Source of the DNA: Rubrobacter xylanophilus
GTDB lineage: Bacteria; Actinomycetota; Rubrobacteria; Rubrobacterales; Rubrobacteraceae
NCBI RefSeq assembly: GCF_007164525.1
Contig: NZ_AP019791.1
Span: forward strand, 1,537,501-1,601,500
Reading direction: 5' to 3'
Length of the DNA: 64,000 nt
Below are positions 6,911 through 62,936 of this stretch, in pieces. Both the position numbers and the translations under genes were made by a program. The notes beneath the pieces were generated by a model that did no database searches, was not told the origin of the DNA, and saw only the letters and a program-made list of their open reading frames with translations. How positions within the stretch are numbered: position 1 is the first letter of the stretch; each line of letters opens with the position of its first letter.

Positions 6911-6999
6911 TCAGGAGCGCTGGGGGTGCCCCGGCAGGGGCTGAGAACGGAGACCCTTGGAACCTGAACCGGTTAGCACCGGCGTAGGGAAGCGCGGAT
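6911..6999 (+). promoter_or_regulatory. TPP riboswitch (THI element)
   Basis: The conserved THI-box parts appear in order: GGGGTGCC (about 6923-6930), GGGGCTGAGA (6937-6946), ACCCTTGGAACCTGA (6953-6967) and CCGGTTAGCACCGGCGTAGG (6969-6988), then GAAGC. This is the thiamine pyrophosphate aptamer, sitting just ahead of thiE and thiSG, and should reduce their expression when TPP is abundant. I did not find a clear intrinsic terminator after it, so control may be at translation. Confidence 0.95.
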
Positions 7000-7094
7000 A
7001 GGGGTAGCGAGACTGGCGTTGCCGCCGCGCCTCCGCGACGGAGGTTGCGGCGGCTCCCTTTTGCCGGGGCCGCGGGCGGGAGGAGGCCGGCCCT

Positions 7095-41114: not shown

Positions 41115-41804
41115 CTACAGCAGCCCCATCTGCCCCTCCCTCCGCAGCCGGTTGGCCGCGTTGTGCGCCTGCCTTACGGGCTCGGGCAGCCGATAGCGGG
41201 TGCAGCAGGCGAGCACGAGCTCCACCGCGCTCCCCAGATCCATCCGGTTGCCCACGGAGACGAAGACGGGTGAGACGCCATCCCGCGTCCGCACGACCCT
41301 CCCCACCACCTCGCCGCCGTGCAAGAGGTCGGAGACGCTGCCCTTCTCTTCGCCGGGCTCCCGGAAATCCCCCACGAGCCGGCTCTTGGCACACCCGACG
41401 GTGGGAACGTCGACGAAGAGCCCCACGTGGCAGGCGAGCCCCATCCGTCGCGGATGCGCCCGCCCCTGCGCGTCGCAGATGAGCGCGTCCACCGGCGTCT
41501 CGACCTCCCTGAGCGCCCCGATCACGGCCGGCACCTCCCGGAAGGCGAGAAGCCCGGGAACGTAGGGGAAACGCAGCGGAGCCTCAAAGCCCCGCACCTC
41601 GACCACCGAGAGCCCCGGGAAATCCAGCACGGCGACGGTGGCATACGCCATGCCCCTCCCGGTCGAAACATCGGCACCGGCTACGTGCCGTACCTCCCCG
41701 ATCTCCAGCGGCGGCCCCTCCTCCACCCGGCCCGCAAGCTCCTCCTGCAGCCTGCGCGCCTCGACCGGCGTGAGGTCGAAGCCGTGCACCTCACGAACCC
41801 TCAC
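41115..41804 (-). CDS. nfi: Endonuclease V
   Basis: A 229-residue Nfi protein that nicks DNA 3' to hypoxanthine (deaminated adenine). Signature stretches are AGADVSTGRGMAYATVAVLDF near 42-62 (metal Asp), FPYVPGLLAFREVP near 79-92, DALICDAQGRAHPRRMGLACHVG near 105-127. GTG 41804 has only a weak GGGGG upstream. The 5' leader contains an 11-bp hairpin, and four GTTACG boxes lie 100-160 bp upstream. Confidence 0.9.
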   Translation of the reverse strand: MRVREVHGFDLTPVEARRLQEELAGRVEEGPPLEIGEVRHVAGADVSTGRGMAYATVAVLDFPGLSVVEVRGFEAPLRFPYVPGLLAFREVPAVIGALREVETPVDALICDAQGRAHPRRMGLACHVGLFVDVPTVGCAKSRLVGDFREPGEEKGSVSDLLHGGEVVGRVVRTRDGVSPVFVSVGNRMDLGSAVELVLACCTRYRLPEPVRQAHNAANRLRREGQMGLL

Positions 41805-41828
41805 GATGGCCCCCGAAAAAGAGAAGTC

Positions 41829-41871
41829 CCGGCCGACGGTATCTGGAGGGGGGAACGGTCCCGTCGGCCGG
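41829..41871 (-). promoter_or_regulatory. Stem-loop in nfi 5' leader
   Basis: CCGGCCGACGG (41829-41839) and CCGTCGGCCGG (41861-41871) form a perfect 11-bp stem with a 21-nt loop. No T-run follows on either strand. It could be a terminator of the molybdoenzyme transcript or a structured leader of nfi, 25 nt from its start. Confidence 0.5.
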
Positions 41872-41905
41872 AAACTGATCTACGCTTTAATCTTACCTTT
41901 AGCCC

Positions 41906-41966
41906 GTTACGTTGGAATTTCCGCCGGGTTACGATTCTGTTACGCTCCGGAAACACTTCGGTTACG
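41906..41966. promoter_or_regulatory. Four helically phased GTTACG repeats
   Basis: GTTACG starts at 41906, 41928, 41939 and 41961, that is spaced 22, 11 and 22 bp. Eleven-bp direct-repeat spacing is typical of OmpR/PhoB-family response regulators. Reading toward nfi (minus strand), TAAGAT near 41889-41894 could be the -10, with the nearest repeat about 17 bp away in place of a -35. This fits an activator site. Confidence 0.55.
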
Positions 41967-42051
41967 CCCTCTCTCCGCGCGTTCGTATACGGCATCCGGT
42001 GCTCCGCAACCATGAAGTTAAGCTTAAAGATAACAGGACACCGGAGTGGTT

Positions 42052-43671
42052 TCAGAGCACGGCGACGCGGAGGGTGTGGTATCCGGTGGCCCCGGATGGG
42101 TGGGGCGGGGTTTTCCTGGCGGTCTGGGTGCGGCCCTCGCCGTCGGTAGCGCGGACCTGGAGGGTATATTCGCCGGGGCGAGCGTCCCACTCGTAGAGGT
42201 ACTGTCTCCAGGAGTCGGGATCCAGCTGGGCGGCGAGGCGGGCCCCGTGCCAGGTCTCTCCGCCGTCGGTGGAGACCTCCACCCTGGAGATACCGCGGTG
42301 CGGGGCCCAGGCGACGCCGCCGACGGGGATTTTGCCGGCGGGCAGGGTCTCGCCGTCCCTCACGGTGTCTATGCGGGACTGGATCTTCACGGGCCCCTCC
42401 TTCGCCCAGCCGCGCTGTATCCAGTAGGCGTCGAAGTCCCAGTCGGTGAGCTCTATCTCCGAGAGCCACTTTGTGGCCGAGACGTATCCGTAGAGGCCGG
42501 GGACCACCAGGCGGGCCGGGTAGCCGTGTTCGAGGGGCAGCTCGCTGCCGTTGAGGCCGAAGGCGACCAGCGCCTCCCGCCCGTCGAAGGCCAGTTCGGT
42601 ACGGAAACCCGCGGTCCAGCCGTCCACGCTGCGCCCCACGATCTGGGCGGAGGAGTCGGTGATGCGTCCGGGATCCACCCCGGCCTCCCGCAGCACGTCG
42701 GAGAGAAGCACGCCGGTCCAGCGGCCGTTGGAGACCAGTCCGCCCCCGACCTCGTTGGAGACGCACGAGAGGGTTATGTCCGCCTCGCGGATGGGCATGG
42801 AGAGGAGGTCGGAGTAGGAGAGCTCGAGCGGGTTCTTCACCGCGCCCCCGACCCTGAGCGACCATTCCCTGACGTCCACCCGCGGGGAGATGAGGGCCGT
42901 GTCGATCAGGTAGAAATCCCCGGCCGGGGTGATGAGGGGCGGCATGCCCGGGGCCTCTATGGAGGCGGTCTCGGGCGGGGGCGGGAGCGTGCGGTGTCCG
43001 GCCCCGTCGCCGGAGGGCCGGCCCTCCGGCAGCCGGAGCGGCCTCGCGGCCTCCGGAGGGGCTTCCCGGGAAGCGAGCAGGCGGCCGGCTCCACCCGCGG
43101 CCGCCCCGGCAGCGACGGCGGCGCCCGCGAGCAATACGAAGTTCCTGCGCCCGAGCTCCGTACCGGGCGCCCCGGCCTCCCGGCGGCGGGTCGCCGGAGG
43201 GCTGTGAGCGGCGGGCCGTGGCGAGCGTCCGGCGCGCAGGAGCAGGCGTGAAGCCCCTGCGCCGCAGGTCAGCGCGAGGAGAAGCGCTGCGGCGGTCGGA
43301 AGGAGAGCCGCGGAGGGCTCGGCGAGGGCGGCGGCACAACCGAGCAGCCAGAGCCCCGCGACCCCGGCGAGGGCCGCCGCCGGATGCCTCAGGGAGAGCA
43401 GGGAGAGCAGGGCTCCGGCGGCGAGCGATCCACAGATCAGGCAGAAGACCAGGAACGGGATGTCCGCCCCGCCGAGCGCCTCTATCGCCCGGGTGGCCAG
43501 ACCGCCGGGAACGAGCTCTATAACCCGCTGGCCGAGCGCAGCGAGCACCGAGGGAACTGCGTCATCGGAGAGCCCGTGAAGCAGCTCCGCGACCCCCAGC
43601 GCCACGACGGCCCCGGCGCCTCCGGCGAGCAAGGCCCTCCTCCGGGCGTTCAATGACGGGATCTGCCACAC
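42052..43671 (-). CDS. Membrane-anchored sulfite-oxidase-like molybdoenzyme
   Basis: A 539-residue protein. The first about 140 residues hold roughly four hydrophobic helices; then GRRNFVLLAGAAVAAGAAAGG (174-194) is a twin-Arg-like segment and a further helix. The molybdopterin domain spans about 240-430 with the Mo-ligand Cys303 in TLSCVSNEVGG; the C-terminal Mo-co dimerisation domain follows (VEVSTDGGETW). It probably oxidises sulfite or reduces a sulfoxide outside the membrane. GTG 43671 sits one base from AGGAGG, so the true start is doubtful. Confidence 0.85.
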   Translation of the reverse strand: MWQIPSLNARRRALLAGGAGAVVALGVAELLHGLSDDAVPSVLAALGQRVIELVPGGLATRAIEALGGADIPFLVFCLICGSLAAGALLSLLSLRHPAAALAGVAGLWLLGCAAALAEPSAALLPTAAALLLALTCGAGASRLLLRAGRSPRPAAHSPPATRRREAGAPGTELGRRNFVLLAGAAVAAGAAAGGAGRLLASREAPPEAARPLRLPEGRPSGDGAGHRTLPPPPETASIEAPGMPPLITPAGDFYLIDTALISPRVDVREWSLRVGGAVKNPLELSYSDLLSMPIREADITLSCVSNEVGGGLVSNGRWTGVLLSDVLREAGVDPGRITDSSAQIVGRSVDGWTAGFRTELAFDGREALVAFGLNGSELPLEHGYPARLVVPGLYGYVSATKWLSEIELTDWDFDAYWIQRGWAKEGPVKIQSRIDTVRDGETLPAGKIPVGGVAWAPHRGISRVEVSTDGGETWHGARLAAQLDPDSWRQYLYEWDARPGEYTLQVRATDGEGRTQTARKTPPHPSGATGYHTLRVAVL

Positions 43672-61608: not shown

Positions 61609-61684
61609 TGGTGGACCCGAGGGGATTCGAACCCCTGACCTCCGCCGTGCAAAGGCGGCGCTCTCCCATCTGAGCTACGGGCCC
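61609..61684 (-). tRNA. tRNA-Ala (anticodon TGC)
   Basis: Acceptor stem GGGCCCG (61678-61684) pairs with CGGGTCC (one G-U), and CCA is encoded at 61609-61611. Anticodon arm CCGCC-TTTGCAC-GGCGG gives TGC. T arm AGGGGTTCGAATCCCCT is perfect. Confidence 0.97.
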
Positions 61685-62657: not shown

Positions 62658-62936
62658 GGTGTGCCGCGCTAAGCGGGGAGCTGGCGATGCCCTGAACCTG
62701 CGATCGCCTAGCAGGGCCTAGATCCCCGCCCGAGGCGGTCCGGGTTCGGTGGAGGCCGGTGACACTGCGGCGTCGATGGTCCGGTCCCGGGCAATGGGGG
62801 CTCGTGAACCGTGTCAGGGCCGGGAGGCAGCAGCACTAAGCGGGTTACCCCATGTGCTTCGGGGCAGCCGGGCCGGAGCTGGCGGCCGGATGCTCGCCGG
62901 GTTCGGTCCCGTCGACGGCGGGGTGCGCGGCACACC
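62658..62936 (+). ncRNA. ffs: Signal recognition particle RNA, long Bacillus type
   Basis: GTGTCAGGGCCGGGAGGCAG near 62813-62832 is the SRP54/Ffh-binding core with its tetraloop, followed by CAGCACTAAG. The 5' part GTGCCGCGCTAAGCGGGGAG is the Alu-domain start. The ends pair perfectly: GGTGTGCCGCGC (62658-62669) with GCGCGGCACACC (62925-62936). The total of 279 nt and the Alu domain mark the long form known from Bacillus scRNA, not the short 4.5S type. It works with Ffh in membrane targeting. Confidence 0.95.

Follow-up and report, generated by a model that had tools for sequence, protein, structure and literature searches.

In Mycobacterium marinum, the C-rich terminator loop of the small RNA B11 has been shown experimentally to pair with the G-tracks of ribosome-binding sites (RBS) and to impede translation (PMC12395582). 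In Agrobacterium, the small RNA PmaR also exposes an accessible C-rich loop and controls cell-wall genes, but its regulation is mostly positive and its pairing occurs mostly away from the RBS (PMC6234868). Regarding transcriptional control, WalR (YycF) of the Firmicutes, whose regulon includes cell-wall hydrolases, recognizes 11-bp direct repeats with the consensus TGTWAH-N5-TGTWAH (PMC9210968), and the sites of MtrA, which in actinobacteria is linked to cell division and wall genes, are two short direct repeats (PMC5650626). A third type, the PHO box of PhoB, PhoP and RegX3, consists of tandem 11-bp units that overlap the -35 region.

Here we analyzed a locus of Rubrobacter xylanophilus contained in a stretch of 64,000 nucleotides (the window), in which a regulator-type array precedes a predicted small RNA (sRNA). 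This sRNA resembles 6C and B11 in having a C-rich loop on a terminator hairpin, a predicted pairing with the G-tracks of target RBSs, an actinobacterial host and a relation to cell-envelope functions (PMC12395582). However, it is formed by one hairpin, whereas B11 has three stem-loops and 6C more than one, two of them C-rich; in addition, its loop continues into CUCCAGAU, its predicted targets are wall hydrolases, and its promoter carries a six-half-site array. Since the 6C model gave no match and only one hairpin is present, we did not file it as 6C; the Rubrobacter sRNA most likely works like 6C/B11, and homology is not claimed. With PmaR it shares the accessible C-rich loop and the connection to cell-wall genes, but PmaR is alphaproteobacterial, acts positively and pairs mostly outside the RBS. 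The array shares the 11-bp direct repeats of WalR sites and the short direct repeats of MtrA sites, but has six tandem half-sites instead of the two of WalR, would drive an sRNA, and shows a sharply conserved GTAAC that distinguishes it from MtrA sites. It also resembles the PHO box in its tandem 11-bp units over the -35 region; however, its unit differs from the GTTCACC quoted in an earlier note on this sequence, and no phosphate gene was found among the secondary matches of the array. Unchecked peptidoglycan hydrolases cause cell lysis. To our knowledge, the known control of these enzymes is mostly transcriptional or proteolytic, and almost no regulatory RNAs have been described in the Rubrobacter lineage, which comprises deep-branching, heat- and radiation-tolerant actinobacteria; a literature search for named Rubrobacter small RNAs found nothing relevant.

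Six half-sites in a strict 11-bp register

On the plus strand of the window, GTTACG starts at positions 41906, 41928, 41939 and 41961, exactly the four boxes with 22-11-22 bp spacing that the earlier note had reported. Its description of the array was incomplete, since two positions of the grid had been overlooked: GAAAC at 41950 and ATTTC at 41917 fill them, giving six half-sites with strict 11-bp spacing. Because nfi (endonuclease V) is encoded on the minus strand, the boxes read CGTAAC toward this gene, and the half-sites follow in the order GTAAC, GTTTC, GTAAC, GTAAC, GAAAT, GTAAC.

The same geometry was observed across the family. In a half-site logo of 32 loci, the 11-bp register was ungapped in all of them and the six half-sites were recognizable in most; the exceptions are a few loci, AT-rich or diverged, in which the promoter-proximal half-sites alone are well kept. 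All half-sites are given on the minus strand. Half-site 1, at the distal end of the array (41961..41965, GTAAC), is kept in most loci but has degenerated in the g2 and g11 genomes, which are AT-rich, and half-site 2 (41950..41954, GTTTC) is present in nearly all. Half-sites 3 (41939..41943) and 4 (41928..41932), both GTAAC, are near-invariant in the 32 loci. Half-site 5 (41917..41921) is GAAAT here and GnAA(g/t) in the family, with its two central A residues invariant (32/32), and in half-site 6 (41906..41910, GTAAC), located in the -35 region, the G and both A residues are likewise invariant in the 32 loci. Invariant bases are thus found within half-sites 4, 5 and 6.

The earlier note had named frequent random spacing as an argument that would count against the array. 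When the intergenic region (41805-42051) was shuffled 20,000 times with its dinucleotide composition preserved, pairs of GTTACG in register appeared 12 times, and three or four copies never did; likewise, none of 3,000 shuffles of this region contained any 6-mer with three copies on an 11-bp grid. The array is therefore far beyond chance. A genome scan for paired boxes, which the same note had proposed, identified this locus as the only occurrence of GTTACG-N5-GTTACG in the whole 3.02-Mb single-contig genome. Direct repeats in one helical register of about 11 bp are the arrangement of OmpR/PhoB-type tandem operators, and the architecture suggested in the earlier note is in this respect well supported; we consider the array a putative operator with the architecture of those bound by response regulators of the OmpR/PhoB family.

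A -10 element, TAAGAT (41890..41895, minus strand), lies 10 bp past half-site 6, that is, 15 bp from first base to first base. Relatives carry TATAGT, TATATT or TAATAT, and the distance was constant in the family loci inspected. The array is thus placed upstream of and over the -35 region of a candidate promoter. The assignment of the proximal box to the -35 and of TAAGAT to the -10 had already been made, and this placement stands; the attribution of the promoter to nfi does not, as discussed below. A generic scan for consensus promoters and terminators returned no match in this region because of its loop-length limit and its sigma-70 rule.

A predicted small RNA between the array and nfi

On the minus strand, the array and the -10 element are followed by CCGGCCGACGG, a 21-base loop containing TTCCCCCCTCCAGAT, CCGTCGGCCGG, TTCTCTTTTT, and nfi, which begins at 41804. 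The same order was found in the loci of relatives fetched via nfi, where the array, the -10 element and the loop are strongly conserved. The segment between the promoter and nfi contains a perfect 11-bp GC hairpin with a T-run (41816-41871), and the best-conserved stretch of the whole locus lies within it. Sequence and fold define the 5' arm CCGGCCGACGG (41861..41871) and the 3' arm CCGTCGGCCGG (41829..41839); the exposed loop UUCCCCCCUCCAGAU (41841..41855), the predicted seed for target RBSs, is unpaired in the fold and is the most conserved stretch of the alignment. The T-run TTCTCTTTTT (41816..41825) has a counterpart in most relatives as a T-rich tract after the stem. From this arrangement, we infer that a hairpin RNA of about 68 nt (41816..41883, minus strand) is transcribed from a start near 41883 and ends with the T-run of an intrinsic terminator. 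On the upstream side, the locus is bordered by a gene whose sequence suggests a sulfite-oxidase-like molybdopterin protein (42052..43671, minus strand), and this gene is the neighbor in several relatives as well.

Since single-sequence folding is uninformative in GC-rich DNA (z = 0.12 against shuffles), we used covariation in place of fold energy. An alignment of 18 sequences showed a single stem with pair-preserving changes, and some covariation measures did not exceed those of shuffles. A larger alignment revealed two-sided changes at 13 of the 18 pairs, with every covariation measure above all 500 shuffles, figures that lean upward because a few of the aligned sequences are weak or antisense matches. 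In a register (slide) control on the larger alignment, covariation showed a sharp peak at zero.

The covariance model (R1) detected the sRNA in 35 of 39 genomes of the Rubrobacteraceae, covering all 13 genera and 21 of the 22 good genomes, and the array, the -10 element and the hairpin are conserved together throughout the family. The genomes lacking a match are mostly fragmented; in one of them, G012, only 58 bp of contig precede nfi. G046 has the sRNA at two loci, each with a full array (L033 and L068), and G004 carries a tandem duplicate of the hairpin (L061, 1501-1633). Separately, a hairpin formed by GGGCGACACCC and GTGTGGCCC around ATTTCCCCCCTCCAG, which the covariance model did not report, could be a diverged second copy in another genome (L158; G016:C35:3542-3557).

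In the searches made, no clear homologue was found outside this family: among 296 genomes of the phylum, no match above 26 bits was obtained outside the Rubrobacteraceae, compared with 49-88 bits for clear copies within it. A search for the array and loop pattern in 84,980 species genomes returned 11 stretches, ten with Rubrobacter or Rubrobacteraceae in their titles and one with only Actinobacteria bacterium. In the window and 16 relatives, the sRNA matched no Rfam family at gathering score, and the 6C model gave no match at its gathering threshold in these sequences or in three permissive scans. The best permissive matches, to Scr3202 (E 7.4) and, in a relative, to ar14 (E 0.57), were rejected as noise. 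Elsewhere in the window, ordinary Rfam matches were the large bacterial SRP RNA (62664-62930), a TPP riboswitch (6912-7007) and a tRNA (61612-61684).

As expected for an independent gene encoding a trans-acting sRNA, the candidate has its own conserved array, -10 element, hairpin and T-run, which are kept where nfi is missing, and it presents an accessible conserved loop with predicted complementarity to target mRNAs. Judged by sequence comparison, it appears to represent a new, previously undescribed family whose predicted regulon consists of cell-wall hydrolases.

The loop is complementary to the start sites of cell-wall hydrolase genes

The loop was back-complemented and searched for at start codons in the 39 genomes, regardless of gene function, as CTGGAGGGGGG-N2-12-ATG and ATCTGGAGGGG-N3-13-DTG, removing hits inside genes and the sRNA itself. 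This search yielded 33 distinct gene starts, 27 of which belong to secreted peptidoglycan hydrolases (RlpA/DPBB, NlpC/P60 and Amidase_2). By Pfam domain, these starts comprised 16 DPBB_1 (RlpA-like), eight NLPC_P60, three Amidase_2 and one CAP; three others, two HpcH/HpaI and one polyprenyl synthetase, appear to be false starts inside genes. A control motif that shares the GGAGGGG core retrieved 10 starts, none of them in the hydrolase families (one-sided p ~4e-6 against 27/33). These counts are not independent, given the shared ancestry within genera, and involve three unrelated enzyme families. The control motif itself, ACAAGGAGGGG, was seen repeatedly at the RBS in a family of secreted proteins of ~170 aa (L218, L227, L230, L238), of which the member displayed has no Pfam domain; this recurrence may reflect another shared RBS code or simple orthology.

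The association was also observed in the reverse direction. When NlpC/P60 genes were identified by profile, blind to their RBS, a complement of at least 9 nt was present near the start in 27 of 70, compared with 8 of the 244 remaining ORFs (p = 1.6e-13); of these eight, at least four are NlpC/P60 ORFs missed by the filter. Given that a strong Shine-Dalgarno (SD) sequence alone could yield GGAGGGG, we evaluated the flanking TCT, which is not needed for pairing with the anti-SD of the ribosome: TCT preceded GGAGG in 10 of 32 NlpC genes and in 1 of 30 others (p = 0.004). The predicted duplexes of target RBSs with the sRNA (-25 to -33 kcal/mol) had about double the stability of duplexes with the anti-SD (-11 to -16 kcal/mol).

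The window's own genome offers few targets. Two genes stand out as clear candidates, one for a secreted beta-helix protein (L160, 13-nt match) and one of the NlpC/P60 type (L336, 9-nt match); a 9-nt match to the loop also precedes a fabI-like gene (L309). A few genomes have a G to A change in the loop; in one of these, G011, two targets were seen and neither has a matching change.

Proposed mechanism and alternative explanations

We consider it likely that the six-half-site array, bound by an OmpR-family regulator most likely of the WalR/MtrA class, activates a trans-acting sRNA of ~68 nt that masks the SD sequences of peptidoglycan hydrolase mRNAs. According to this model, phosphorylated regulator dimers would bind three adjacent 22-bp units of the array and bring RNA polymerase to a class II promoter, with the array over the -35 and TAAGAT as the -10. 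The transcript would form one long hairpin, which would also serve as its own terminator, presenting the loop UUCCCCCCUCCAGAU for pairing with AUCUGGAGGGGGG-type SD sequences in the mRNAs of secreted RlpA-like lytic transglycosylases, NlpC/P60 endopeptidases and N-acetylmuramoyl-L-alanine amidases. The seed covers the SD sequence, and repression of translation is therefore expected: the paired loop would block ribosome access and reduce hydrolase synthesis. Some RlpA-like genes have array pairs in their own promoters as well, which may place them under two-level control. Taken more broadly, it seems reasonably probable that a family-specific sRNA under a six-site two-component promoter is a dedicated post-transcriptional brake on the secreted hydrolases of the Rubrobacteraceae, with one seed reaching enzymes of three unrelated classes by way of a common, extended SD code and the same regulator also acting directly on some genes. 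One conserved RNA seems to act on the RlpA, NlpC/P60 and amidase families together through a common RBS sequence, and the length and specificity of the predicted pairing make it amenable to testing.

The earlier note had assigned the array to nfi (41115..41804, minus strand), and according to this explanation the array would activate nfi directly, the hairpin being an mRNA leader or a weak terminator, perhaps a read-through attenuator. The presence of nfi downstream in most genomes and, in the window, its start only ~12 nt past the T-run agree with this idea. However, G017 has no match to nfi, and the array and the RNA are kept there between genes for a sulfite-oxidase-like protein and an oligopeptide-binding protein; in G010 both lie between this oligopeptide-binding-protein gene and an isoleucyl-tRNA-synthetase-like gene, and nfi is on a separate contig, preceded by coding DNA and with no array, which indicates that nfi does not need it. 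Moreover, the conserved loop matches other genes and not nfi. We therefore rejected nfi as the target; it is probably a neighbor wrongly taken as the regulated gene, into which limited read-through may occur, and direct activation seems quite improbable. The case shows that a promoter motif beside a DNA-repair gene can be credited to the wrong gene. We also give little credence to the idea that the RNA is terminator-derived or binds proteins, as a decoy for the ribosome or an RNA-binding protein, with the G-rich RBSs of the hydrolase genes being just strong SD sites. The loop does contain CCUCC, like the 16S anti-SD, and G-rich RBSs are common in high-GC genomes, but the match extends into the TCT that SD pairing does not require and that is enriched in hydrolase genes, and the control motif with the same core retrieved none of the hydrolase families. 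There is likewise only a small chance that the sRNA activates its targets, for instance by opening an inhibitory structure or protecting the mRNA. Some sRNAs with C-rich loops are positive regulators, such as PmaR on most of its targets (PMC6234868); nevertheless, most PmaR sites lie outside the RBS, whereas the pairing predicted here covers the SD itself, an arrangement that is repressive in B11.

The candidate regulator

For the preferred reading, in which the array drives a repressive sRNA, the six OmpR-type regulators encoded in the genome were compared as candidates, none of which exceeded an NCBIfam equivalog cut-off. The regulator L073 is closest to MtrA, RpaB and YycF, with MtrA as its best match, and is followed by a kinase whose nearest family is WalK. 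Its scores are below the cut-offs of both MtrA (257.6 versus 300) and YycF (253.3 versus 340), and for this reason we claim only that it is of that class. The family consensus of the array, (C/T)GTAAC-N5-(C/T)GTAAC, fits the WalR consensus (PMC9210968) at five of six positions, with C in place of the first T in most half-sites. On its plus strand the array has GTTAC-N6-GAAAC, a sequence similar to GlnR boxes, but GlnR was not among the best family matches of any of the six regulators and is not favored.

With the profile of the whole array, only the sRNA promoter scored strongly, and the window's genome gave one match even at E 10. Weak secondary matches were observed before RlpA, NlpC/P60 and other envelope genes. 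Array pairs preceded 5 of 11 RlpA-like genes and 11 of 298 controls (p = 7e-5), an enrichment that is conservative because the high-scoring controls are largely array-bearing nfi promoters; before NlpC genes they were not clearly enriched (4/48, p = 0.14).

These data somewhat favor a regulator of the WalR/MtrA class; one of some other class is doubtful, and one of the PhoB class rather unlikely. The latter would leave the sRNA unchanged and place it under a phosphate regulator of the PhoB/RegX3 type, linking phosphate limitation to wall turnover, a scheme to which we assign a low probability. It agrees with the presence of a PhoB-like regulator with a PnpS/PhoR-like kinase (L076), and with the RegX3 score of L073, which equals its MtrA score. 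In addition, the phosphate regulators of Gram-positive bacteria bind related sequences repeated every 11 bp, and the similarity of the repeats recognized by PhoB/RegX3-type proteins counts against the WalR/MtrA assignment. On the other hand, array pairs precede RlpA-like genes, and phosphate genes were absent from the secondary array matches. The likeness to a PHO box proposed earlier holds for the tandem 11-bp geometry but is not favored as an identification, given the approximate fit of the half-site to the WalR consensus (PMC9210968) and the cell-wall genes among the predicted targets.

A second recurrent array, CTGTTACCnAACTGTTACC...GTAGCGGTACTGTAACTTCG, was observed upstream of genes for CPBP-family membrane proteases (L108, L109, L113 and L122, with L113 of the CPBP/Rce1 type). 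Related sites precede a FUSC-like exporter gene (L110), and a similar pair is present in the window's genome (L031, 1501-1516).
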